NCBI GenBank assembly: GCA_903921965.1 | Contig: CAIXSE010000600.1 | Span: 1-11,958, forward strand | DNA: 11,958 bases | DNA from: an uncultured Thermoleophilia bacterium | Lineage (GTDB): Bacteria; Actinomycetota; Thermoleophilia; UBA2241 | Reading direction: 5' to 3' | Shown here: piece after piece, positions 2,802 through 11,639 of the stretch | Numbering within the stretch: position 1 is the stretch's first letter | Layout: the number at the start of each line of letters is the position of its first letter | Position numbers and translations under genes: made by a program | Notes under the pieces: generated by a model | Told to the model about the DNA's origin: nothing | The model's database searches: none | The model's input: only the letters and a program-made list of their open reading frames with translations

Positions 2802-4325
2802 ATGGAAGGTAGTACACGGAGCGGAGGAGAGCGAGGTCTTGTCGCTTCGCTTGGGGCAGACAGGGCCGGGGCGGCCGAGGCCGTCCGCGTGAACCCCTTC
2901 AAGCGCCGCGTCGCTGCCGCGCTCGTCTCCGACGTCGTGGCGGTCACGGCGGCGTCCCTGCTCGCCGTGCAGCTCACGCGGGCGCTGGATGCGGTGCCCG
3001 TGGCCGGCCGCGTCGTCCGCTCGTTCGAGGTGGAGCCCAGTCTGGGCGCCTACGCCTTCCTGCTGCTCATCCCGCTGTGGATCGCCGCGCTGTGGGCCTT
3101 CGGCCTGTATCGCGAACCGGGCCGGAGCCTTGGCGGGGGCACTTTCGTCCAGACGTTCTCCGGCCTCACCGCGGTGACCGCGACCGCCTGGATCGTCCTC
3201 ATCGGCATGGTCCTCCTCCGCGGTGAGCACGCGCCCGTGGCGAGCCTCATCACGTTCTGGGCCCTCGCCGTCGTGCTGCTGCCTCTGGGCCGGTGGCTCA
3301 CCAAGGCGCTGGTGTGGTCGCGAGGCACGTTCTGCGAGAGGGTGCTCATCATCGGTGCCGGCGACGTGGGGTACACCGTCGCCGACAAGATCGCCAAGCA
3401 CCCCCGCCTTCGTGTGAAGCTCGTGGGGTTCCTCGACGACGGCGAGCCGCGGGGTCACGAGGGCGGCTCCGGGGCCCGGGTGCCGGTCCTGGGCGTCCTG
3501 GGCGACCTGCCGCGAGTCATCGCCGAGCAGGGCGTCGACCGGGTGATCATCGCCTTCTCGCGCGCTCGCCACAACGACTTCCTGCGCGTGGTGCGCGCCT
3601 GCGCCGACACCGCCGTACAGGTCAACATCGTGCCGCGGCTCTTCGAGGTCGTCAGCTCCCGGGCCCTCGTGGACGACGTCGAGGGCATCCCTCTGCTCGA
3701 CGTCGGTCACGTGGAGCTCGGGCGGTTCAACATGGCCGCCAAGCGCGTGTTCGACCTCATCGTCGGCGGCGCCATCTGCGTCGTCGCGCTCCCGGTCATC
3801 GGTGTGGTGGCGGTGCTCATCAAGCTCGAGTCACGGGGTCCGGTGTTCTTCCGCCAGGAGCGCATGGGCAAGGGCGGCAGGACGTTCATGATCCTGAAGT
3901 TCCGCTCGATGTACGAGGGCGCCGAGCGCCTGCGCGACGACCTGTCCGGTCAGAACGAGTACTCGGGGCCCATGTTCAAGATGAAGCGCGATCCCCGGGT
4001 CACGCGCATCGGCGGCTGGCTGAGGCGCTGGAGCGTGGACGAGCTTCCCCAGCTGCTCAACGTGATGAAGGGGGACATGAGCCTCGTCGGGCCGCGGCCG
4101 CTCTGGGTCGAGGAGGCCAGGCAGTGTCGCGGGTGGACCCAGAAGCGGCTGGACATCACCCCCGGCATGACCGGGCTGTGGCAGGTCCTGGGGCGCAACG
4201 ACATCCCGTTCGAGGAGATGGTCAAGCTCGACTACATGTACGTCACCGGCTGGAGCCTGGGCTGGGACGTGAAGCTGCTCCTGCAGACGGCCGGCGCCGT
4301 GTTCGACAAGCGCGGCGCGTACTGA
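2802..4325 (+). CDS. Polyprenyl-phosphate hexose-1-phosphate transferase (exopolysaccharide-initiating sugar transferase)
   Basis: A 507-residue membrane enzyme of the WbaP/WcaJ type. It moves a sugar-1-phosphate from a nucleotide sugar to undecaprenyl phosphate, the first step of a surface polysaccharide repeat unit. Four hydrophobic helices occupy about residues 37-58, 83-103, 121-139 and 146-163. A Rossmann-like segment follows (VLIIGAGDVGYTVADKI, 181-197). The C-terminal bacterial sugar transferase domain (PF02397) starts at about 312 with KRVFDLIVGG, includes a membrane-dipping helix (319-340), LKFRSM (365-370), the catalytic Asp-Glu pair of DELPQLLNVMKGDMSLVGPRP (D413, E414) and DITPGMTGLWQVLGR (451-465). 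The length is slightly above the usual 460-490 because of a 30-residue polar N-terminus. It lies 131 nt after ymdB and converges on the - strand operon. The actual sugar cannot be read from sequence. Confidence 0.95.
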   Translation: MEGSTRSGGERGLVASLGADRAGAAEAVRVNPFKRRVAAALVSDVVAVTAASLLAVQLTRALDAVPVAGRVVRSFEVEPSLGAYAFLLLIPLWIAALWAFGLYREPGRSLGGGTFVQTFSGLTAVTATAWIVLIGMVLLRGEHAPVASLITFWALAVVLLPLGRWLTKALVWSRGTFCERVLIIGAGDVGYTVADKIAKHPRLRVKLVGFLDDGEPRGHEGGSGARVPVLGVLGDLPRVIAEQGVDRVIIAFSRARHNDFLRVVRACADTAVQVNIVPRLFEVVSSRALVDDVEGIPLLDVGHVELGRFNMAAKRVFDLIVGGAICVVALPVIGVVAVLIKLESRGPVFFRQERMGKGGRTFMILKFRSMYEGAERLRDDLSGQNEYSGPMFKMKRDPRVTRIGGWLRRWSVDELPQLLNVMKGDMSLVGPRPLWVEEARQCRGWTQKRLDITPGMTGLWQVLGRNDIPFEEMVKLDYMYVTGWSLGWDVKLLLQTAGAVFDKRGAY

Positions 4326-4384
4326 CGCGAGAGCGGCGGAGCCGCGGGAGCCTGGACGGCACGTGCGGGCACCAGTCCGCAACG

Positions 4385-4425
4385 ACGACGGCCCCCGGAG
4401 GCGCTGCGCCTCCGGGGGCCGTCGT
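4385..4425. terminator. Perfect 20-bp inverted repeat, probable bidirectional terminator
   Basis: Two perfectly complementary 20-nt arms (4385-4404 and 4406-4425) are separated by one formal base at 4405, so the real hairpin loop would open to 3-5 nt. The arms are GC-rich (core GGCCCCCGGAGGCG). The repeat lies in the 121-nt gap between two converging genes, the sugar transferase stop (4325) and the small peptide gene stop (4447). That position fits a terminator shared by both strands. There is no T-tract on either side, so it is not a textbook intrinsic terminator. High-GC organisms often use such hairpins without U-runs. Confidence 0.75.
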
Positions 4426-4446
4426 GTGAGACTCCTCGGTCCGGCC

Positions 4447-4617
4447 TCAGGTGCCGGTGACGCCGCGGCAGACTCCCGGATTGCCCGACGGATCCCAGCC
4501 GCACTTGTCGCCGGTGACGGTGTTGTAGCCGCCGTCGTGGTTCTTGCACACCAGAAGAACAGCTTCTTCAGGCCGGCCGCGGGTGAGCACGAAGAGCTTC
4601 GGCTCTGTCCACTTCAT
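4447..4617 (-). CDS. Candidate RiPP precursor peptide, 56 residues, three cysteines
   Basis: A small gene at the end of the - strand operon. Its protein begins MKWTEPKLFVLTRGRPEEAV, continues with LLVCK (C24) and has a Gly/Asn/Asp-rich tail with C39 and C50, ending VCRGVTGT. The start at 4617 is chosen because GGGGG lies 7 nt upstream, and because the 27-residue upstream extension of the frame (from 4698) would run through the likely promoter. The layout, a compact conserved-looking N-terminus (PKLFVL, RPEEAVLLVCK) followed by a low-complexity, Cys-containing tail, is that of a leader plus core peptide. The genes immediately upstream encode radical SAM/SPASM enzymes, a PqqD-like protein and a peptidase, which supports a role as their substrate. 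No signal peptide is visible. I do not recognise a named family. It could be a short metal-binding protein instead. Confidence 0.75.
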   Translation of the reverse strand: MKWTEPKLFVLTRGRPEEAVLLVCKNHDGGYNTVTGDKCGWDPSGNPGVCRGVTGT

Positions 4618-4624
4618 CGTGATA

Positions 4625-4694
4625 CCCCCAAGCTGTGGTTGAGACCACGTAGTCAGTTGTGTGTACGATACTACCCTTGTAGCGGTTCTGTCGA
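4625..4694 (-). promoter_or_regulatory. Candidate promoter, leader hairpin and ribosome binding site for the precursor peptide gene
   Basis: On the - strand a TCGACA box (4694-4689, one mismatch from TTGACA) is followed after 18 nt by TATCGT (4670-4665, four of six matches to TATAAT). A small hairpin with 5-bp arms GTGGT/ACCAC (4635-4648) lies in the predicted leader. GGGGG (4629-4625) then precedes the ATG by 7 nt. The whole 91-nt gap is visibly richer in A/T than its surroundings. This suggests the peptide is transcribed at its own level in addition to read-through from the upstream operon. The promoter call is by eye only; the -10 match is moderate. Confidence 0.45.
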
Positions 4695-4708
4695 CCATCT
4701 ATCTGTTG

Positions 4709-5845
4709 TCAGGGCTGCATACTGTTGCCGTCTGGTGACTCTTCCTTGACCAGCGCGGCCCGTGCGTGCGCCACGGAGCAGAAGTACGACACGTCGCCGT
4801 CGAGCGCGCCCGTCTCGAGGTACGAGTGGGCCGGGCACCACAGGCAGAGGTTGAAGACCTCGCACGCGCCGCAGCCCTCGACGTACTCCTGCTTGTCGGT
4901 GGTCATCTCCCACACGCGCGGCACCAGCGAGGTCCACGCCTCGGCGAGCGTTCCTCTGCGCAGGTCGTAGACGCAGTCCGGGTGGTGCAGCGAGGCGCAC
5001 GGGCGGAAGAGCCCCTCGGGGCCGACGGTGAAGCTGTCTTTCCCAGGGCGGCAGCGGAAGAGGCGGCGCGAACGCACGCCGCTCGCCTGGGGGATGAGGA
5101 GACCGTCGCGGTGCTCGCGCATCGCCGCGCAGCGCTCCTCGTCGGTCTCTTCGAGGCGGGCGATCTGCTCGGGCGACAGGCGCTCCGCGCGGATCAGCGC
5201 GTTTCTCGTCTCGTCGCCGTCGTAGCGCAGGTGCAGCTGCGGGTCGAAGCGGAAGAAGTCCTTGGTCCGCGCCCGGCAGAAGGCGGCGATCGCGTCCAGT
5301 TCGTGCACGTTGGCGCGCAGCGCCATGGCCTTCAGACGGACGGGGATGCGCGCCTCTTCGAGGAGCGCCAGGCCGCGGCGGAATGCGTCGTAGGAGCCGG
5401 GTCTGCGGGTGACGGCCTCGTACGTCTCGCGCGTGGCGCCGTAGACGGTCACCTCGATGTTGCGCGGCGGGACGTCCTTGAACAGGCGGACGTGGCGCTC
5501 CTTCACGAGGCACGCGTTGGTGAACACCGAGACGACGAACCCCTTGCGCCGGAGCAGCAGGTAGGCGTCTTCGAAGTCCTCGCGGAGCAGGGGCTCGCCG
5601 CCCGTGACGAGGCACCACAGGGCGCCGAGCTCTCGTGCCTCGCCGGCGATGCGGTCCAGCTCCTCCAGCGTGAGCTCGGCCTGCAGGGCCCGGCGGTCGC
5701 CCGCGGGCAGGTTGATGTAGCAGTGCGCGCAGTCGTTGTTGCAGCGGGCGGTCAGCTCCAGCTCGAAGCTCACCGGCAGGCGCTTGCGGCGCATGTCGTC
5801 CCAGAGCGGGAGCGAGGCGATCGGCAGTTCCTCGACGGTGCTCAC
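4709..5845 (-). CDS. Radical SAM/SPASM peptide-modifying enzyme (copy next to the precursor)
   Basis: A 378-residue protein. The radical SAM cluster motif is C35-N-N-D-C39-A-H-C42, followed by YINLPAGDRRAL and the SAM-binding TGGEP (81-85). The C-terminal SPASM domain shows seven well-placed cysteines: C265, C283 (with the G-x4-C spacing), C325 and C328, C334 and C337, and C356. It should therefore bind two auxiliary iron-sulfur clusters as well as the SAM cluster. Such enzymes form carbon-carbon, thioether or similar cross-links, or epimerise residues, in ribosomal peptides. The GTG start at 5845 overlaps the stop of the upstream peptidase gene (GTGA), which decides the start; longer in-frame extension upstream is a shadow of that gene. 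It is paralogous to the enzyme at 6619-7782. The reaction cannot be predicted from sequence alone. Confidence 0.93.
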   Translation of the reverse strand: MSTVEELPIASLPLWDDMRRKRLPVSFELELTARCNNDCAHCYINLPAGDRRALQAELTLEELDRIAGEARELGALWCLVTGGEPLLREDFEDAYLLLRRKGFVVSVFTNACLVKERHVRLFKDVPPRNIEVTVYGATRETYEAVTRRPGSYDAFRRGLALLEEARIPVRLKAMALRANVHELDAIAAFCRARTKDFFRFDPQLHLRYDGDETRNALIRAERLSPEQIARLEETDEERCAAMREHRDGLLIPQASGVRSRRLFRCRPGKDSFTVGPEGLFRPCASLHHPDCVYDLRRGTLAEAWTSLVPRVWEMTTDKQEYVEGCGACEVFNLCLWCPAHSYLETGALDGDVSYFCSVAHARAALVKEESPDGNSMQP

Positions 5846-6339
5846 CGCAGCCTCCTCCACGCCGCCTCGAGCTTGCGTCCCGCGGCGACGAGCGGGGTGA
5901 GCAGGCCGTGGCGCGAGAGCGCGGCGAGCAGCAGCCGCTCGGGGCGCCGCCCCAGCCGGACCTCGTGGACGCCGCGTTCGACGCGCGTGACGCGGCCCAG
6001 GAGGAGCCCCGCGGCGATGGGCCCGTCGGGCTCCAGGGCGGCGTCCCCGCGCGTCACGAAGCACCCCGGCGCGCCGGCTACGATACGGTGGACAAGGAGC
6101 CTGTCGTCGCCGGAGCGGCGGAACGCGACGACGTCGCCGAGCTTCGGTCCGCGGCCCGCGAACGGGCTCACCGTGAGCACGTCGCCGTCCCTGATGAACG
6201 GGTGCATGCTGCAGCCCCCCGCGCGGAAGCGCACCGACTCGCGGCGCCCGAGGATGTCCTCCATGAGGCCGCGGAACGCGGCGGCCGGCAAGACGATGCC
6301 GTCTTCAGCCTCCGCGAACGGTCTAGGCTCCGGCGACAT
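5842..6339 (-). CDS. Signal peptidase I (S24/S26)-like protein, candidate leader peptidase
   Basis: A 165-residue protein with the boxes of the S26 serine peptidase family. AGGCSMHPFIRDGDVL carries the nucleophile box (S44), GPKLGDVVAFRR is the second box, and LLVHRIV has H84 where bacterial leader peptidases normally use a Lys. TRGDAALEPDGP is the last conserved box. A Ser/His pair is the form seen in SipW/archaeal/eukaryotic-type signal peptidases. No clear N-terminal transmembrane anchor is visible; only a modest hydrophobic stretch near the C-terminus (LLLAALSRHGLLTPLVAAG) could touch the membrane. The ATG at 6339 overlaps the end of the PqqD-like gene by 17 nt, and its TGA overlaps the next gene's GTG. 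S26-like proteins of this kind often accompany PqqD and HprK-like genes; cleavage of the precursor leader is the likely, unproven role. Confidence 0.82.
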   Translation of the reverse strand: MSPEPRPFAEAEDGIVLPAAAFRGLMEDILGRRESVRFRAGGCSMHPFIRDGDVLTVSPFAGRGPKLGDVVAFRRSGDDRLLVHRIVAGAPGCFVTRGDAALEPDGPIAAGLLLGRVTRVERGVHEVRLGRRPERLLLAALSRHGLLTPLVAAGRKLEAAWRRLR

Positions 6340-6634
6340 CCACGACCATGCCGCGCGCGGCCAGCTCGGTGAGCAGCGCTCCGACGTGGCCCGGGATCTC
6401 CCCGTCCGGGTCTTCGTACTCGGCCTGCAGACCGGCGATGACCTCGTCGACCGAGCGCTTTCCGTCGAGGTGCTCCCAGACGGCCTTGCCCGTCTCGTTC
6501 AGGCTGAAGAGCTCGGCCTCGAGGTCGCCGACCCCGGAGGTGAGAGGGACGAGCACGATCTGCCCCTCGATGTCGCGGACCACGAGGTCCGGCGAGGGTT
6601 CGAACACCTGTGCGCCGCTCACTCCTTCAGACAT
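6323..6634 (-). CDS. PqqD-like peptide-binding (RRE) protein
   Basis: A 103-residue protein with the PqqD fold signature: an N-terminal beta-rich part (FEPSPDLVVRDIEGQIVLVPL), the sequence LFSLNETGKAVWEHLDGKRSVDEVIAGLQAEY (about 42-73) typical of the family, and a helical C-terminus ending in LLTELAARGMVVDV. PqqD-type domains bind the leader of a precursor peptide and present it to the radical SAM enzyme. The ATG at 6634 is chosen because AGGAG lies 8 nt upstream; the gene overlaps the radical SAM gene before it by 16 nt and the peptidase gene after it by 17 nt. It is a free-standing protein here, shared in principle by both radical SAM enzymes. An alternative is a recognition partner of the HprK-like kinase, as PqqD-like proteins also occur beside HprK-like genes in other loci. 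Confidence 0.9.
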   Translation of the reverse strand: MSEGVSGAQVFEPSPDLVVRDIEGQIVLVPLTSGVGDLEAELFSLNETGKAVWEHLDGKRSVDEVIAGLQAEYEDPDGEIPGHVGALLTELAARGMVVDVAGA

Positions 6635-7782
6635 GCGATGCGCTCCTTCCAGTCGGTGACTTCCCATGGATGTTCTCCGGCGGCCAGCAGGCCTAACCGC
6701 CGGGCTTGCTCCTGCGCGATACGGCACTGGTACTCTACGGGCCGGTCGAGGACGCCGTGCTCGGCGTACGAACGTGCCGGGCACTGTTCGCAGTACCCCG
6801 CCAGGAAGCACCTGGCGCAGCGCTCGAGGTAGGCGGGGTCGGTGGCCTTCATCTCCCTCAAGCGCGGGAACGCCTCGGTGACCGCCTCTCGCAGCGATCC
6901 GGTCGAGAGGTCGTACGCGAGGGCGGGGTCGCGCAGCACCGAGCAGGCGTGCAGGATGCCGTAGGGGTCGAGCGCGGGGCGCTTGCCGATGTCGCAGGCG
7001 AAGAGCGTGTCGCCGGAGGGTCCGCAGAAGGCGCGGCAGAACTCGGCGGAGACGGCCTCGTGCCCCGCCGCCTCCGCGGCGGCGGGGAGGACCTCCGCGG
7101 GATCGGCGCGTACGTCTTCGATGCTTCGGTTGCGGCGGCTGGAGTCGCGCCGCCTCCTGAGGTCGTAGAACATCACCTGCGAGGGCGCGTCGACGACCGT
7201 CGGCAGCCCGGCCGCCCAGGCCGCGAGCTCCTTCATCTCGCCGGTGTAGGGCGGCCTGAAGGCTCCGCTGAGCTTGAGCGGTACGCCGGCCTGCCCGAGG
7301 AGGTCGACGCCGCGCCGGAACTCCGCGTACGACCCCCTGCGCCGCGTCATCGCCTCGTAGGTGGCCGCCGACATCCCGTAGACGGTGACCTCGGCGGGGC
7401 TGCGCGGCGGGATCTCCGACAGCAGGGCGGCGAGCTCCGGGGTGACGCGGCGGGCGTTGGTGGCCAGCGTGACGGTGATCCCCAGGCGCCGCGTGTACTC
7501 GTAGAGCTCCGCGAAGTCGTCGCGGACGAGCGGTTCGCCTCCCGTGAAGCGGATGCGCAGGAGGCCGAGCTCGGCGGCCTCGGCGAGGATCTCCCGCGCC
7601 CGTTGCGTCGAGACCTCGGCGGCGAGAGCGCGGGCGTCGTCGAGCGGCAGGTTGACGCAGCAGTGGCGACAGTCGTTGTCGCAACGTTCGGTGAGCTCGA
7701 AGTCCATCTGCGCGAGCAGCGGCCGCGGGATGACGGCGCCGGGGCCGGAGACGACCACGGAGGATGGCCGGGGCTCGCTCAC
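6619..7782 (-). CDS. Radical SAM/SPASM peptide-modifying enzyme (second, upstream copy)
   Basis: A 387-residue protein. The cluster motif C34-D-N-D-C38-R-H-C41 is followed by CVNLPLDDARAL; the SAM-binding GGEP is at 81-84. SPASM cysteines are C263, C280 (G-x4-C), C322 and C325, C331 and C334, and C353, with two extra cysteines at C249 and C253. It closely parallels the other enzyme: both share NDC-x-HC-x2-NLP, EVTVYG, TYEA-x-TRR-x-GSY and FRRG at the same places, so they look like an old tandem duplication. The GTG at 7782 is chosen because it starts 14 nt after the HprK-like stop and gives the same N-terminal length as the paralogue. Its ribosome binding site is weak, so upstream alternative starts inside the HprK-like gene cannot be excluded. 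The target residue is unknown. Confidence 0.92.
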   Translation of the reverse strand: MSEPRPSSVVVSGPGAVIPRPLLAQMDFELTERCDNDCRHCCVNLPLDDARALAAEVSTQRAREILAEAAELGLLRIRFTGGEPLVRDDFAELYEYTRRLGITVTLATNARRVTPELAALLSEIPPRSPAEVTVYGMSAATYEAMTRRRGSYAEFRRGVDLLGQAGVPLKLSGAFRPPYTGEMKELAAWAAGLPTVVDAPSQVMFYDLRRRRDSSRRNRSIEDVRADPAEVLPAAAEAAGHEAVSAEFCRAFCGPSGDTLFACDIGKRPALDPYGILHACSVLRDPALAYDLSTGSLREAVTEAFPRLREMKATDPAYLERCARCFLAGYCEQCPARSYAEHGVLDRPVEYQCRIAQEQARRLGLLAAGEHPWEVTDWKERIACLKE

Positions 7783-7796
7783 GGGGTGCGGCTCAG

Positions 7797-8837
7797 TCAG
7801 TCGCCGGCGCCGTTCGCGCACAGCTCGCACAGCACCGGCACGATCGCCCCGCTCCTGTCGAACTCCATCGTGTACACCGGCACCGAGACGGCGATGTGCT
7901 CCACGATCGCCAGCGTCTGGCGCCACCACGCGGCGGTGACCACCGGCTTGATGACGCAGCCCAGCAGCGTCGCGAGCGAGGCGACCGGCTCCATGCGGGT
8001 GAGGCGGTTGTCGGCCGACTGCTTGAGCAGGAGCACGGCGCGCAGCGGCGCCGACTGCGGCGAGACGATCGGCACCTGCCCGTGGCTCCAGGTGCCGTGG
8101 ATGCGGTGTCCGTCGGGCCAGCGGCGGATGATGTTGCGGTCGTCGCACAGGGGTACGGCGACGTCCTTCAGGAGTTCGAGGATCGTGGACTTGCCGGCCT
8201 CGGAGTGGCCGACGAACACCAGGCCCGCCTCGTCGAGGACGACGGCGCTGGAGTGGAAGTAGCAGGCGTCGCGGGCGGCCAGCGCCGGCGCCACGACGAC
8301 CTGGTCGGTGGGGAACAGCGTGAGCGCGTTCTGGTTGCCGCGGAGGAAGCCCTCTTCGAGGCGGGGACCGTTGAGGATGCGCCCGCGCGTGTGCGCCTCG
8401 TTGAAGACGGCGATGCGGTCGAGGGTGTGACCCGGACCCATGAGGCCGCGGTAGATGTAGTGGCCGTCGCGGTGCGAGATGACCCAGTTCACCGCCCGGT
8501 GGACCTCGTCGCCGTAGTCGCCCTCGGTGTCGGCAGGGAGGCCGAAGTGATGCCTGAACAGGAGCGTGTCGGCGCCCGGGCTGATGACCTCGAACGCGTC
8601 GAACTTGCGGGAGAACGTGCGCTCGGCGAACGGGAGGTCGGACTCGACGGCGACGGTGAGCCCCGCGAGCTGGTAGAAGCGGCGGCGGGTGCGGTCGACC
8701 GCGGGGAGCGCGTCCACCGGCGTGAGGAGGGCATCGGGGAGCCGCACGTCGTCTCGCCCGGTCCACGGCCCGAAGGTATCTCCCGGATGTGCTGTCACGT
8801 GCACCTCGCTGTCCGCGGGCCCCAAGGCTGTGCTCAT
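7797..8837 (-). CDS. HprK-related P-loop kinase-like protein
   Basis: A 346-residue protein with the nucleotide-binding region of the HPr kinase/phosphorylase superfamily. HSSAVVLDEAGLVFVG (195-210) leads into the P-loop GHSEAGKST (210-218), followed by the acidic pair of LCDDRNIIRR (D232, D233). The roughly 190-residue N-terminal half is unlike classical HPr kinase and is not recognised beyond its occurrence in such HprK-related proteins. There is no nearby HPr or PTS gene, so a role in carbon catabolite control is unlikely. HprK-like kinases in lasso peptide clusters (paeninodin type) phosphorylate the precursor peptide's C-terminal hydroxyl residue. HprK-related proteins also occur with PqqD-like and nucleotidyltransferase genes in exopolysaccharide loci. 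Its ATG overlaps the stop of the nucleotidyltransferase (ATGA, 8834-8837), indicating coupled translation with it. Confidence 0.88.
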   Translation of the reverse strand: MSTALGPADSEVHVTAHPGDTFGPWTGRDDVRLPDALLTPVDALPAVDRTRRRFYQLAGLTVAVESDLPFAERTFSRKFDAFEVISPGADTLLFRHHFGLPADTEGDYGDEVHRAVNWVISHRDGHYIYRGLMGPGHTLDRIAVFNEAHTRGRILNGPRLEEGFLRGNQNALTLFPTDQVVVAPALAARDACYFHSSAVVLDEAGLVFVGHSEAGKSTILELLKDVAVPLCDDRNIIRRWPDGHRIHGTWSHGQVPIVSPQSAPLRAVLLLKQSADNRLTRMEPVASLATLLGCVIKPVVTAAWWRQTLAIVEHIAVSVPVYTMEFDRSGAIVPVLCELCANGAGD

Positions 8838-10009
8838 CGCCTTCTCAGGGACTTCTGCAGGTAGCGGACCCGCTGGAAGATCTCCCAGGCGACGGGCTGG
8901 TTCGACTCACCGTGGTCCATCATACCTTGGTCCCGGGGCGCGAAGACCTGCAGCGCCGCCAGACGGGCGCCGTCCCACCGGCGGTCCAGCGAACGCGCGC
9001 GCCACAGCGTGCTGATGAGACGGGTGTCGCCGAGGTCGTCGGACGTCTCGATGAGCTCCGCGGCCTTGCGTGCCAGAGCGCAGGCCCCGGCGTCTGCCGC
9101 GAGAGCCTCGGTGAACTCCGGCGGCAGCGGGGCGCCGGCGAGGTCTCTCGCCAGGGCGAAGCCCACCAGGCAGCGGCGCAGCGCCCCCCGCGCCCGCGCC
9201 CGCCGGACGAAGCGGTCCGGGCGGCCGTAGGCGCCCCCGGCGAGCACGCGGGCGAGCGTGGCCACGTGCTCCAGCTGCGCCCAGCGGTGGGCGTCGCCGT
9301 GGACGCACAGCGCCAGGAGGTCGTCGGACGGGCGGAGCACGAAGATGGGGTGGCCGAGGAGCGTCCCCGGCTGCGCCCGCCGGAGGAGCTCCTCGGCGTC
9401 GAAGACGGCGGGGACGAAGGCAGGCCCAGTGCGCCAGTGCACTTCGACCAGGAGGTCGTGGCCCTCGAGGATGTCGTGGAACTGCCCGTCGCGGGTGTGT
9501 GCGTCGTCGGCCGGCCGGCGGGTGGCGGCGATGCCCAGGCCCGCGAGGACCTCACAGGCCTCGGCGACCTGAGACCTGGCGACGAACAGGTCGAGGTCCT
9601 GGAAGTAGCGCATGGTGATCTCGCCGTAGGCGCGTTCGGAGAGGACGGGTCCTTTGTACGGCAGAGCGGTGATGTGCCTGGCGCCGAGGGCGGTGATGAT
9701 GCGGAGGAGCGCGACGGCCTGCCGCAGCGAGCGTTCGGCGTTGGCCTGGTTGATGAGCCGCACTTCTTCGAAGAGGGCCTGAGGAACCAGGTCGCGGTGC
9801 GGCGACAGCGTCGTGAAGAACAGGGGGAGGACCGACTGGTGGATGGCGAGGTCCCGCAGGCGGGGCCAGTCGGTGACGCGGGCGAGCGCCGCCCGGAGGT
9901 CGTCCGCGGCGACGCCGAGCCGGGTGCACGCCAGCAGCGCCGCGTACTCTGGGCTCGTGGAGCGGGTGTCGCGGCGAGCCGGCGCCGGATCAGGCGTAGT
10001 AGTGGCCAT
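8834..10009 (-). CDS. Nucleotidyltransferase family protein (PF14907 type)
   Basis: A 391-residue protein. Landmarks of the family are LPYKGPVLSERAYGE (K119, G120), the Pol-beta-like acidic motif RYFQDLDLFV (R134, D138, D140), a third acidic block LLVEVHWR (E189, H191, W192), and LLALCVHGDAHRWAQL (H237, H241, W243). The pattern is that of the uncharacterised nucleotidyltransferases found in RiPP clusters next to HprK-like kinases and in polysaccharide loci. One proposed role, from lasso peptide work, is further modification of a phosphorylated peptide. The donor nucleotide and acceptor cannot be inferred here. The gene overlaps the end of the BY-kinase gene by 20 nt and the HprK-like gene by 4 nt. 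The ATG at 10009 has only a distant GGAG upstream; the first 20 residues are Pro/Arg/Thr-rich and may be poorly conserved. Confidence 0.88.
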   Translation of the reverse strand: MATTTPDPAPARRDTRSTSPEYAALLACTRLGVAADDLRAALARVTDWPRLRDLAIHQSVLPLFFTTLSPHRDLVPQALFEEVRLINQANAERSLRQAVALLRIITALGARHITALPYKGPVLSERAYGEITMRYFQDLDLFVARSQVAEACEVLAGLGIAATRRPADDAHTRDGQFHDILEGHDLLVEVHWRTGPAFVPAVFDAEELLRRAQPGTLLGHPIFVLRPSDDLLALCVHGDAHRWAQLEHVATLARVLAGGAYGRPDRFVRRARARGALRRCLVGFALARDLAGAPLPPEFTEALAADAGACALARKAAELIETSDDLGDTRLISTLWRARSLDRRWDGARLAALQVFAPRDQGMMDHGESNQPVAWEIFQRVRYLQKSLRRR

Positions 10010-11639
10010 AGCTGGACGAGCGGCTCCTGGCCTTGACCAGTACGGCGCCGAGCTGCTTGCAGGGCAGCGGCCTGAGGAGGTCGCGCATCTCGACGAGCGT
10101 CGTGTGCTGCGCCCTCTTGATGTCGACCACGACGACCAGCGCGTCGATCTGTGCCGCGAGCGCCGCCGCGTCGCCGACCTCGAGCAGCGCCGGCGAGTCG
10201 ACGAGCACGAGGTCGGCGCCGTTGCCCTTGAGGTCGCGGATGACCTCGCCGAACCTGCTGGACGCCACGAGCTCGCCGGGGTCCGGGACCTGGCGGCCGG
10301 CGGTCAGGACGTACAGGGCCGGCTCCGTCGCCGTGCGCCGGCCCGCCGCCGTCTCGGGGCCGACGTCGGCGGTCCGGGCGACCACCACGGGGATGCGCAC
10401 GCCGGCGGTGGCTGCGCCGGCCTGCTGCGAGCCGTCGCCGGCCGGCGCCTGCAGGGTGCTGCGCAGCTCGACGTGCTGGATGACGTCGATGAGCGACTTG
10501 TCGTCGGCGAGGACGTCGGAGAGCCCCGCCTCGTTGGGCAGGCCGAAGTACTCGTGCACGCGCGGGCGGCGGATGTCGCCGTCGACGACGACGACCTTCT
10601 TGCCCGCGAGGGCCAGGGTGATGGCGAGGTTGCACACCATGGTGCTCTTGCCTTCGCCGGCGCGGGCGCTCGTGACCATCAGTGAGGAGTGTCCGTCGGG
10701 GTTGAAGTAGTCGAGGTTGGCACGCAGCAGCCGGAGTGCTTCGGCCATCTTTCCGCGCGGCTCGTTCAGCACGACGAGGCGGCCCGCTCCGAGGCTGCGC
10801 CGGTCGATCTCGGGGAGGGTGCCCACCACGGGGAGCCCCAGGACCGCCGCCGCCTCCTGCTTGCCGCTCACCCTGGCGGTGAGCGGCTCCAGGATGAACG
10901 CGAGGGCGACGCCCAGGAGGATCCCGACGCCGAGGCCCAGGAACGCGGCCTGACGCGGCTGCGGCGCGAACGGATCGTTCGGCGGCACGGCCTGCGTGAT
11001 CTGCTCGAAGTCGCCGGCCGCGGTCGTCTCGAGCAGCTTCAGGCTCTGCAGCCGCTGCTGCAGCAGGGCGTAGTCGGCGGACTGCTGCTGCTCGGGCGTC
11101 GTGAAGGCCTCCATGTTGGCCTTCACGGCCTGCTCGGCGGCCGTGATGCGCTTGAGCTGCTGGTCCTTGCGCCACTGCACGATGGCCGCCGCGTAGGCGT
11201 TGGCGGCTGCTGCTGCGACAGCGGGGTCGCCGCTGGTCGCGGTGACGTCGACCACGCCGCTCGTGCCGCCGCTGCCGGACGTGCTCTCCCTCGCCGAAGC
11301 CGACACGGTGAAGTCGCCGCCGAGCGGTGCCTCGGCGGTCTTCTGTGCGAGGTCGTAGATCTCGGTGCTGTCGGCCAGGTCGAGGATGTTCTCCACGGCC
11401 AGGTCGCGGGCCTCGCCCGCGTAGTAGGACCCGCCGAGCGGGTCGGACGGGTCCACCGGTTCCACGTACAGCAGGGACGCCGTGGCGGCGTACTGGGGCG
11501 CCTGCTGCCACGAGTAGACGAAGGCGCCCGCGGTCGACGCGCACACCACGATGAGGATGACCCACTTCCAGCGCCAGAGGACGCGCAGGTAATCACTGAG
11601 CGACATGCCGCCGCTCTTGCCGGACGGGCCTTGGGCCAT
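9990..11639 (-). CDS. Polysaccharide co-polymerase / tyrosine autokinase (Wzz plus BY-kinase)
   Basis: A 549-residue protein. An N-terminal Wzz domain starts with SDYLRVLWRWKWVILIVV and has transmembrane helices at about 26-44 and 232-250 flanking an extracytoplasmic part rich in coiled-coil residues (about 155-215). The cytoplasmic BY-kinase domain has Walker A SARAGEGKST (324-333), Walker A' VVVVDGDIRRPR (D353, D355) and Walker B LVLVDSP (D481). It ends SYGHYYA, a short tyrosine cluster (Y544, Y547, Y548) for autophosphorylation. Such proteins control chain length and export of capsule or exopolysaccharide. A roughly 50-residue Ala/Gly/Thr-rich insert (391-440) separates Walker A' from Walker B. 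GGAGGT lies just upstream of the ATG at 11639; M12 is an alternative start. It is the first gene of the operon that includes the peptide-modification genes. Confidence 0.95.
   Translation of the reverse strand: MAQGPSGKSGGMSLSDYLRVLWRWKWVILIVVCASTAGAFVYSWQQAPQYAATASLLYVEPVDPSDPLGGSYYAGEARDLAVENILDLADSTEIYDLAQKTAEAPLGGDFTVSASARESTSGSGGTSGVVDVTATSGDPAVAAAAANAYAAAIVQWRKDQQLKRITAAEQAVKANMEAFTTPEQQQSADYALLQQRLQSLKLLETTAAGDFEQITQAVPPNDPFAPQPRQAAFLGLGVGILLGVALAFILEPLTARVSGKQEAAAVLGLPVVGTLPEIDRRSLGAGRLVVLNEPRGKMAEALRLLRANLDYFNPDGHSSLMVTSARAGEGKSTMVCNLAITLALAGKKVVVVDGDIRRPRVHEYFGLPNEAGLSDVLADDKSLIDVIQHVELRSTLQAPAGDGSQQAGAATAGVRIPVVVARTADVGPETAAGRRTATEPALYVLTAGRQVPDPGELVASSRFGEVIRDLKGNGADLVLVDSPALLEVGDAAALAAQIDALVVVVDIKRAQHTTLVEMRDLLRPLPCKQLGAVLVKARSRSSSYGHYYA

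Follow-up and report, generated by a model that had tools for sequence, protein, structure and literature searches.

A predicted radical SAM peptide cassette with an HprK-like kinase in an uncultured Thermoleophilia bacterium

Contig CAIXSE010000600.1 of an uncultured Thermoleophilia bacterium, analysed as one stretch of 11,958 nucleotides (nt) and hereafter called the window, carries seven minus-strand genes at 4447–10009 that probably form a single cassette for a ribosomally synthesized and post-translationally modified peptide (RiPP). The product would represent an undescribed class of scattered occurrence, with a core modified by radical S-adenosylmethionine (SAM) enzymes and a phosphorylated C-terminal Ser/Thr. 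The genes lie head to tail and encode an NTP_transf_5 protein, an HprK-like kinase, the radical SAM enzyme rSAM1, a PqqD-like protein, an S26-like protein, the radical SAM enzyme rSAM2 and a peptide of 56 residues. An earlier note on this DNA had described seven consecutive minus-strand genes joined by overlaps or a 14-nt gap, except at the last junction, and ending in a 56-residue peptide with three Cys; frames and coordinates confirmed both points.

The seven-gene cassette and its precursor family

The features of the cassette are as follows.

4447..4617, minus strand: 56-residue precursor peptide, with a leader WxxPxL...PEExVLxxCK, a core with two further Cys and a C-terminal Thr
4594..4611, minus strand: WTEPKL, the predicted WxxPxL leader motif bound by the RiPP recognition element (RRE), from the sequence and the motif precedent in PMC13381572
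4450..4470, minus strand: C-terminal signature C-x5-T (CRGVTGT), with the last residue as predicted phospho-acceptor, from tail counts among precursors versus control open reading frames (ORFs)
4709..5845, minus strand: rSAM2, radical SAM/SPASM enzyme (PF04055 7e-20; seven-Cys SPASM pattern; GTG start overlapping the S26 stop)
5842..6339, minus strand: S26-like (archaeal-type signal peptidase-like) protein, predicted leader peptidase (TIGR02228 43.2 bits; Ser44, His84, Asp99)
6323..6634, minus strand: PqqD-like discrete RRE (PF05402 7.4e-15)
6619..7782, minus strand: rSAM1, radical SAM/SPASM enzyme (PF04055 1.2e-18; seven-Cys SPASM pattern; GTG start)
7797..8837, minus strand: standalone HprK-like kinase (His-Lys-Asp-Asp residues; HPr kinase/PEPCK fold in a model)
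8834..10009, minus strand: NTP_transf_5 nucleotidyltransferase-like protein (PF14907 3.5e-44)

All seven frames are free of internal stops. Four junctions are overlaps (NTP_transf_5/HprK-like, 4 nt; rSAM1/PqqD-like, 16 nt; PqqD-like/S26-like, 17 nt; S26-like/rSAM2, 4 nt), the 14-nt gap separates the kinase and rSAM1 genes, and 91 nt lie between rSAM2 and the peptide gene.

The 56-residue peptide, whose Cys are residues 24, 39 and 50, is, judged from its sequence, a genuine precursor. When 42 relatives, but not the window, were used to build a leader profile, it matched the peptide at 43.6 bits (E 1.1e-11) and no other of the 90 small ORFs in the window. The best control scored 8.2 bits among 13,566 small ORFs from 68 control loci (L012–L079; distant paralogues of 23–32% identity). 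This test is a leave-one-out check rather than a blind search, because the relatives were first found using the window peptide. Homologues of the peptide were detected on nine of the 11 named relative contigs and were not found on L003 and L007. The window peptide had no family match in NCBIfam or Pfam, nor did the L004 peptide in NCBIfam. A longer start at 4698 was set aside in favour of 4617 because GGGGG precedes 4617 and a promoter-like site lies downstream of 4698. The intervening frame (4618–4698) is open up to the earlier ATG and encodes a second WxxPxL motif (WSQPQL), which is probably untranslated.

Full-length comparison with the window peptide gave ten precursors, and these seeded the leader profile that recovered the remainder. 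The resulting 43 distinct precursors share the leader W-x-x-P-x-L...PEE-x-VL-x-x-CK, and their cores vary. Their ends are conserved as well: 34 finish in Ser and four in Thr (Ser/Thr in 38/43), position −7 is Cys in 35/43, and at the rest of the last eight positions no single residue occurs in more than 12 precursors. The end Cx5[ST] was present in 31/43 precursors versus 62/13,566 control ORFs; in the window it reads C-RGVTG-T. The tail was not a selection criterion, since selection after the seed used the leader profile; the exception is one peptide added by hand from the full-length search (L008:2528), which lacks the tail. The set, whose members are not mutually independent, includes two weak members (L175:1457, leader E 0.18; L009, 0.019). 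It excludes a chance match inside the Wzc-like gene of the window (at 9990), three matches in the SynChlorMet loci L168 and L171, and ORFs found under relaxed rules (two in L137, one each in L176 and L177). The window row of the tail-count table carried a wrong upstream start, which leaves the tail counts unaffected. Five different precursor-like genes stand in a row beside a single enzyme set at L175 1241–3080, the weakest with a leader E of 0.18.

The neighbourhood of the peptide is also conserved. On 42 contig pieces carrying rSAM2, we found PqqD on 40, S26 on 39, HprK on 35, rSAM1 on 34, precursors on 31 and an rSAM3::HprK fusion on 28; ABC matches (16 pieces) and NTP_transf_5 (12 pieces) were less common. 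These counts record presence anywhere on the piece, with L137 and L176 counted as having precursors and L177 not; L172–L177 came from a search for SynChlorMet proteins in Chlorobiales. The commonest gene order was rSAM3::HprK, rSAM1, PqqD, S26, rSAM2. Precursors, numbering one to five, sit on either side of the enzyme genes or between them, and an ABC exporter often comes next (Pfam ABC_tran in L006). The earlier note had tied its proposal of a RiPP system to the peptide having homologues and a shared leader, and the conserved precursors, leaders and synteny bear that proposal out.

Radical SAM enzymes, leader peptidase and kinase

Both window enzymes carry the Radical_SAM domain at the E-values listed above, the CxxxCxxC motif and a complete seven-Cys SPASM pattern, whereas Pfam scored the SPASM domain below cut-off in rSAM2 and gave no SPASM match in rSAM1. 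Across the family, the motif and pattern together were found in rSAM1 36/36, rSAM2 37/38 and rSAM3 27/28, and PqqE and SkfB were among the best matches to solved structures. In a tree of 44 of 111 rows (35 of 102 cassette radical SAM rows and nine from SynChlorMet loci), rSAM1, rSAM2 and rSAM3 formed three well-supported groups, subject to a long-branch warning; window rSAM2 grouped with 12 relatives and window rSAM1 with 11. The claim of two radical SAM/SPASM enzymes thus holds for the window, but most relatives have a third, fused to the kinase. Thirty ORFs in relatives fuse rSAM3 in frame to an HprK-like domain, one example being L011 6517–8469. The window, which has no rSAM3, carries the kinase alone, and so do L008, L144, L146, L147, L149 and a few more loci. 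Where a core is rich in Cys, SPASM enzymes commonly form Cys thioethers. The radical SAM enzymes should modify the core here, where thioethers, C–C bonds or other changes are all possible. Further radical SAM-like genes lie between cassette genes in L002 (8522–9976, by Pfam) and L147 (7654–8562, by the CxxxCxxC motif only).

The profile of the PqqD-like family matched PqqD, TbiB1, TfuB1, 9x90 (PbaB1) and 9x8z (LppB). Alignments bearing on the Trp-pocket versus Tyr-pocket rule for RREs (PMC13381572) gave no clear answer, and we make no claim from them. For the S26-like protein, Pfam matches to S26 and S24 fell below cut-off, as did TIGR02228 (43.2 bits, cut-off 51.85), and its assignment comes from a profile search against solved signal peptidases. 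Ser44, His84 and Asp99 were invariant in 19/19 aligned rows, the window included. The protein is probably the leader peptidase, by the precedent of the linear polyphosphorylated peptides (LPP; Popov et al. 2026, PMC13381572). The cut would fall near PEE, because the FET that precedes the cut in LPP (14–16 residues from the first aromatic) aligns with PEE here.

No HprK family in Pfam or NCBIfam scored above cut-off for the kinase. An AlphaFold model of residues 49–346 (predicted local distance difference test score 93.6) shows an HPr kinase/PEPCK fold, and the His-Lys-Asp-Asp residues are present. The kinase motif was exact in 22/29 aligned kinases; the family alignments used hand-picked subsets, in this case 29 of about 40. 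Degraded HprK-like domains, still fused to rSAM3, occur at L006 6597–7490 (SKAE) and L177 7134–8003 (TQDR). The earlier note had raised possible phosphorylation or nucleotidylation, and its phosphorylation part can now be sharpened: the target is probably the C-terminal Ser/Thr. The Ser/Thr kept at the precursor end makes C-terminal phosphorylation, as in paeninodin-type peptides, the best guess.

The analysis shows the genes and their synteny, the conservation of leader and tail, the presence of the catalytic residues and a predicted fold for the kinase; from these we infer the reactions, their order and the product. The PqqD-like RRE would hold the precursor through its WxxPxL leader, while the two SPASM radical SAM enzymes, joined in most relatives by a third, would alter the Cys-containing core. 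The HprK-like kinase would phosphorylate the C-terminal Ser/Thr, six residues past the fixed Cys, as PadeK does in paeninodin, and NTP_transf_5 may extend that phosphate with a sugar or nucleotide in the manner of PsmN, which adds a hexose in paeninodin-type peptides (PMC9266682). Finally, the S26-like Ser-His-Asp peptidase, together with the RRE, would remove the leader, as LppS does in LPP.

Several observations weigh against this proposal. The kinase profile matched ABC P-loops ahead of HPr kinases, for which the match was weak (E 0.02). Five precursors (two in L001, one in L144, the first in L008 and the second in L175) do not end in Ser/Thr although their genomes carry kinases, and L008:2528 ends in P. 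Conversely, the L006 kinase reads SKAE yet its precursor ends Cx5S, and the L177 kinase reads TQDR yet the candidate peptide there ends in Ser. The LPP kinase and BsfK phosphorylate core Ser3 rather than the last residue. No precursor was found by the criteria used on 11 of the 42 rSAM2 pieces, the window, which is cut at its upstream end, contains no exporter, and the relatives are nearly all metagenome-assembled genomes, in which single contigs may be misbinned. Covariation of kinase and tail was considered as proof of phosphorylation and rejected as not clean (L006, L001, L144, L008, L175).

Some of these points would suit a different assignment, in which the C-terminal Ser/Thr is a radical SAM site, for example of a thioether from Cys to the last residue over C-x5-[S/T], and the kinase has another target in the core, as the Ser3 kinases of LPP and Bsf do. 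We regard this as possible but doubtful. The Cys at −7 does resemble a ring-forming spacing, and L006 retains the tail despite its degraded kinase motif; however, a last residue limited to Ser/Thr in 38/43 precursors fits a kinase acceptor, most aligned kinases keep the exact motif, and PadeK, ThcoK, SyanK and PsmK all act on a C-terminal Ser (PMC9266682). For the favoured C-terminal phosphorylation, the fixed C-x5-[S/T] tail makes the kinase site directly testable, and the rSAM3::HprK fusions do the same for the coupling of the two steps.

Comparison with known systems

One of the two nearest systems is SynChlorMet (Scm; NCBIfam TIGR04248–TIGR04251), which like the window combines a PqqD-like protein (ScmD), an HprK-like protein (ScmC) and two radical SAM/SPASM enzymes (ScmE, ScmF) and is, as far as we found, uncharacterised. 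It is unlikely that the cassette is a divergent form of it. Scm models do rank first for the window kinase, second for both radical SAM enzymes and third for the PqqD-like protein, but at scores far below cut-off: ScmF 78.9 and ScmE 70.8 bits (cut-off 400 each), ScmC 23.0 bits (cut-off 125) and ScmD 24.6 bits (cut-off 100). A true Scm locus, L168, gave 628.5 (ScmE), 603.7 (ScmF), 270.8 (ScmC) and 129.5 bits (ScmD) as a positive control. Ten proteins of L006, L008 and L009 came no closer than those of the window, and the kinases and PqqD proteins of these loci had no Scm match at 1e-5. In the 44-row tree, under the same long-branch warning, rSAM1, rSAM2, rSAM3, ScmE and ScmF are five separate groups.

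The four ScmE-positive Chlorobiales loci (L168–L171) resemble the cassette in also carrying HprK-like and S26-like proteins, with ABC matches on three and WxKP peptides on three; the cassette S26 profile matched all four at 48–66 bits, beside the HprK-like gene. They differ in lacking an rSAM::HprK fusion and in the leader and tail of their peptides, none of which has PEExVLxxCK or ends in Cx5[ST]. The same comparison yields candidate precursors for SynChlorMet cassettes. These are Cys-rich peptides starting W[QE]KP beside the Scm genes, at L168 11786–11986 and 13664–13942 (plus strand), L170 8032–8316 (minus strand) and L171 9073–9354 (minus strand). Those of L168 and L171 matched the leader profile at E about 0.9, that of L170 was found by pattern only, and none was found in L169. 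Two of the four (L170, L171) end in Thr, at other spacings, and three of the peptides had no family match in NCBIfam.

The earlier note had named GeoRSP as a related set, which proved not to be the nearest named relative: for both window radical SAM enzymes the GeoRSP model lay outside the best 25 and SynChlorMet models came second. Membership in GeoRSP was rejected on its PqqD model (TIGR04302, 23.1 bits, cut-off 100), and membership in HprK-related kinase B on a kinase score far below cut-off.

Two described systems share the tailoring proteins. In LPP, the other of the two nearest systems and the closest one worked out in detail, the YxxP leader is bound by a discrete RRE, without which the signal-peptidase-like enzyme does not cut it; a kinase adds phosphate to the core, and the system also includes an NTP transferase (PMC13381572). 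LPP is like the cassette, at the level of domains rather than subfamilies, in its archaeal-type signal peptidase-like peptidase, discrete RRE, HprK-like kinase and NTP transferase, and also in its [Y/W]xxPx[hydrophobic] leader, its polysaccharide-locus setting and, for some cassette relatives, an ABC exporter (PMC13381572). It differs in that the LPP text never mentions 'radical SAM' or 'SPASM', in that its phosphate is on core Ser3, and in being confined to Bacillota according to its authors (PMC13381572). The LPP leader motif YxxPxVLxHQxIxFETxxS is absent from the window leader, WTEPKLFVLTRGRPEEAVL, and no MsbA-like transporter of the LPP kind was found in the window, which is cut upstream. 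Paeninodin-type lasso peptides (PadeK, PsmN) share a His-Lys-Asp-Asp kinase acting on a C-terminal Ser, an NTP transferase and a discrete RRE (PMC9266682). Their leader is of the WxxP type, as here, and such motifs have been described in both lasso and LPP leaders (PMC13381572); HPr kinase is mentioned alongside lasso clusters (PMC4289311). Neither a macrolactam synthetase nor a B2 peptidase was among the scanned window proteins, which include radical SAM enzymes instead; the lasso enzymes were not sought in relatives or beyond the window.

The pyrroloquinoline quinone (PqqD/PqqE) and SkfB-type maturases share a PqqD-like partner with a SPASM radical SAM maturase; in contrast, the cassette has a kinase as well as two or three maturases that are paralogues of one another, and the cores are unrelated. 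Within the NCBIfam and Pfam scans and the literature searched, the cassette appears to define an undescribed class of RiPP in which radical SAM maturation would be paired with tailoring of the LPP/paeninodin type. That literature showed no paper on SynChlorMet or on such a gene set, with most subscription papers outside its coverage. The cassette would join two RiPP chemistries known apart there, namely radical SAM maturation and C-terminal phosphorylation with RRE-assisted leader cutting by a signal-peptidase-like enzyme.

Genomic setting and distribution

The cassette lies between polysaccharide genes in the window, which has a G+C content of 71%. The flanking features are as follows.

9990..11639, minus strand: polysaccharide tyrosine autokinase (Wzc-like; TIGR01007 120.6 bits, cut-off 108.05)
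2802..4325, plus strand: exopolysaccharide polyprenyl glycosylphosphotransferase, convergent neighbour (TIGR03025 393.2 bits, cut-off 295.55)
4382..4427, no strand assigned: GC-rich hairpin after the precursor gene, between the convergent genes (−54.9 kcal/mol for 4370–4446, z −4.69)
4665..4694, minus strand: promoter-like site within the 91 nt between rSAM2 and the peptide gene (TCGACA-18-TATCGT, 9/12; shuffles mean 0.0; a consensus match only)

The hairpin is a probable terminator, yet a scan for T-run terminators did not list it. The autokinase gene upstream shares 20 nt with the NTP_transf_5 gene; eight genes therefore make up the run, which is coupled to the polysaccharide locus.

That overlap, together with the facing glycosylphosphotransferase gene and the lack of an exporter in the window, raises the question of whether the system is an accessory of the polysaccharide locus, its peptide regulating or attaching to a surface polysaccharide rather than being freed as a product. 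LPP and paeninodin loci also often lie within capsule loci. We nevertheless consider this reading improbable: an ABC-exporter match is present on 16/42 pieces, and the typed flanking genes of relatives (such as methyltransferases, HflX-like, MocA-like, histidine kinase), few as they are, are not polysaccharide genes. More speculatively, and in our estimate quite improbably, a radical-crosslinked peptide might be joined to a sugar or surface polysaccharide by its C-terminal phosphate, extended by NTP_transf_5, with the rSAM3::HprK fusion of most relatives, as one protein, coupling a radical SAM step to that phosphorylation. Such a product, if real, would be a new RiPP class common to bacteria and archaea.

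A contig scan with rSAM2 returned 11 loci at 52–60% identity under eleven group names, one of them archaeal: Poribacteria, Lentisphaerae, deltaproteobacterium, Aminicenantes, Calditrichaeota, Geobacteraceae, Chloroflexi, Chlorobiaceae, Methanotrichaceae archaeon, Actinomycetota and Omnitrophota. Peptide homologues adjoin the same enzymes in many groups; with this and the 43.6-bit leader score against 8.2 for the best control, we give practically no credence to the notion that the short ORF, 91 nt from rSAM2, is a chance one and the enzymes act on another substrate. In whole-genome searches rSAM2 was found in 1/296, 8/199, 7/193, 1/84, 4/39, 5/247, 2/251 and 3/199 genomes, at E 1e-70 for the first search and 1e-80 for the rest, counting the query loci's own genomes; one of the 4/39 is the 43% relative L141. 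The cassette, which thus also occurs in other bacteria and in some archaeal genomes, is rare and scattered, and this scatter suggests horizontal transfer. A tblastn search of 72,556 plasmid records gave no match to rSAM2 at E 1e-40.

Two loci showed further features. L141 1682–3957 is a distant relative (rSAM2 42–43%, HprK 30%) with S26 and PqqD neighbours, perhaps of a second subfamily. In L007, an ORF at 11171–12754, after the cassette, has GNAT acetyltransferase and ADP-ribosylglycohydrolase domains.

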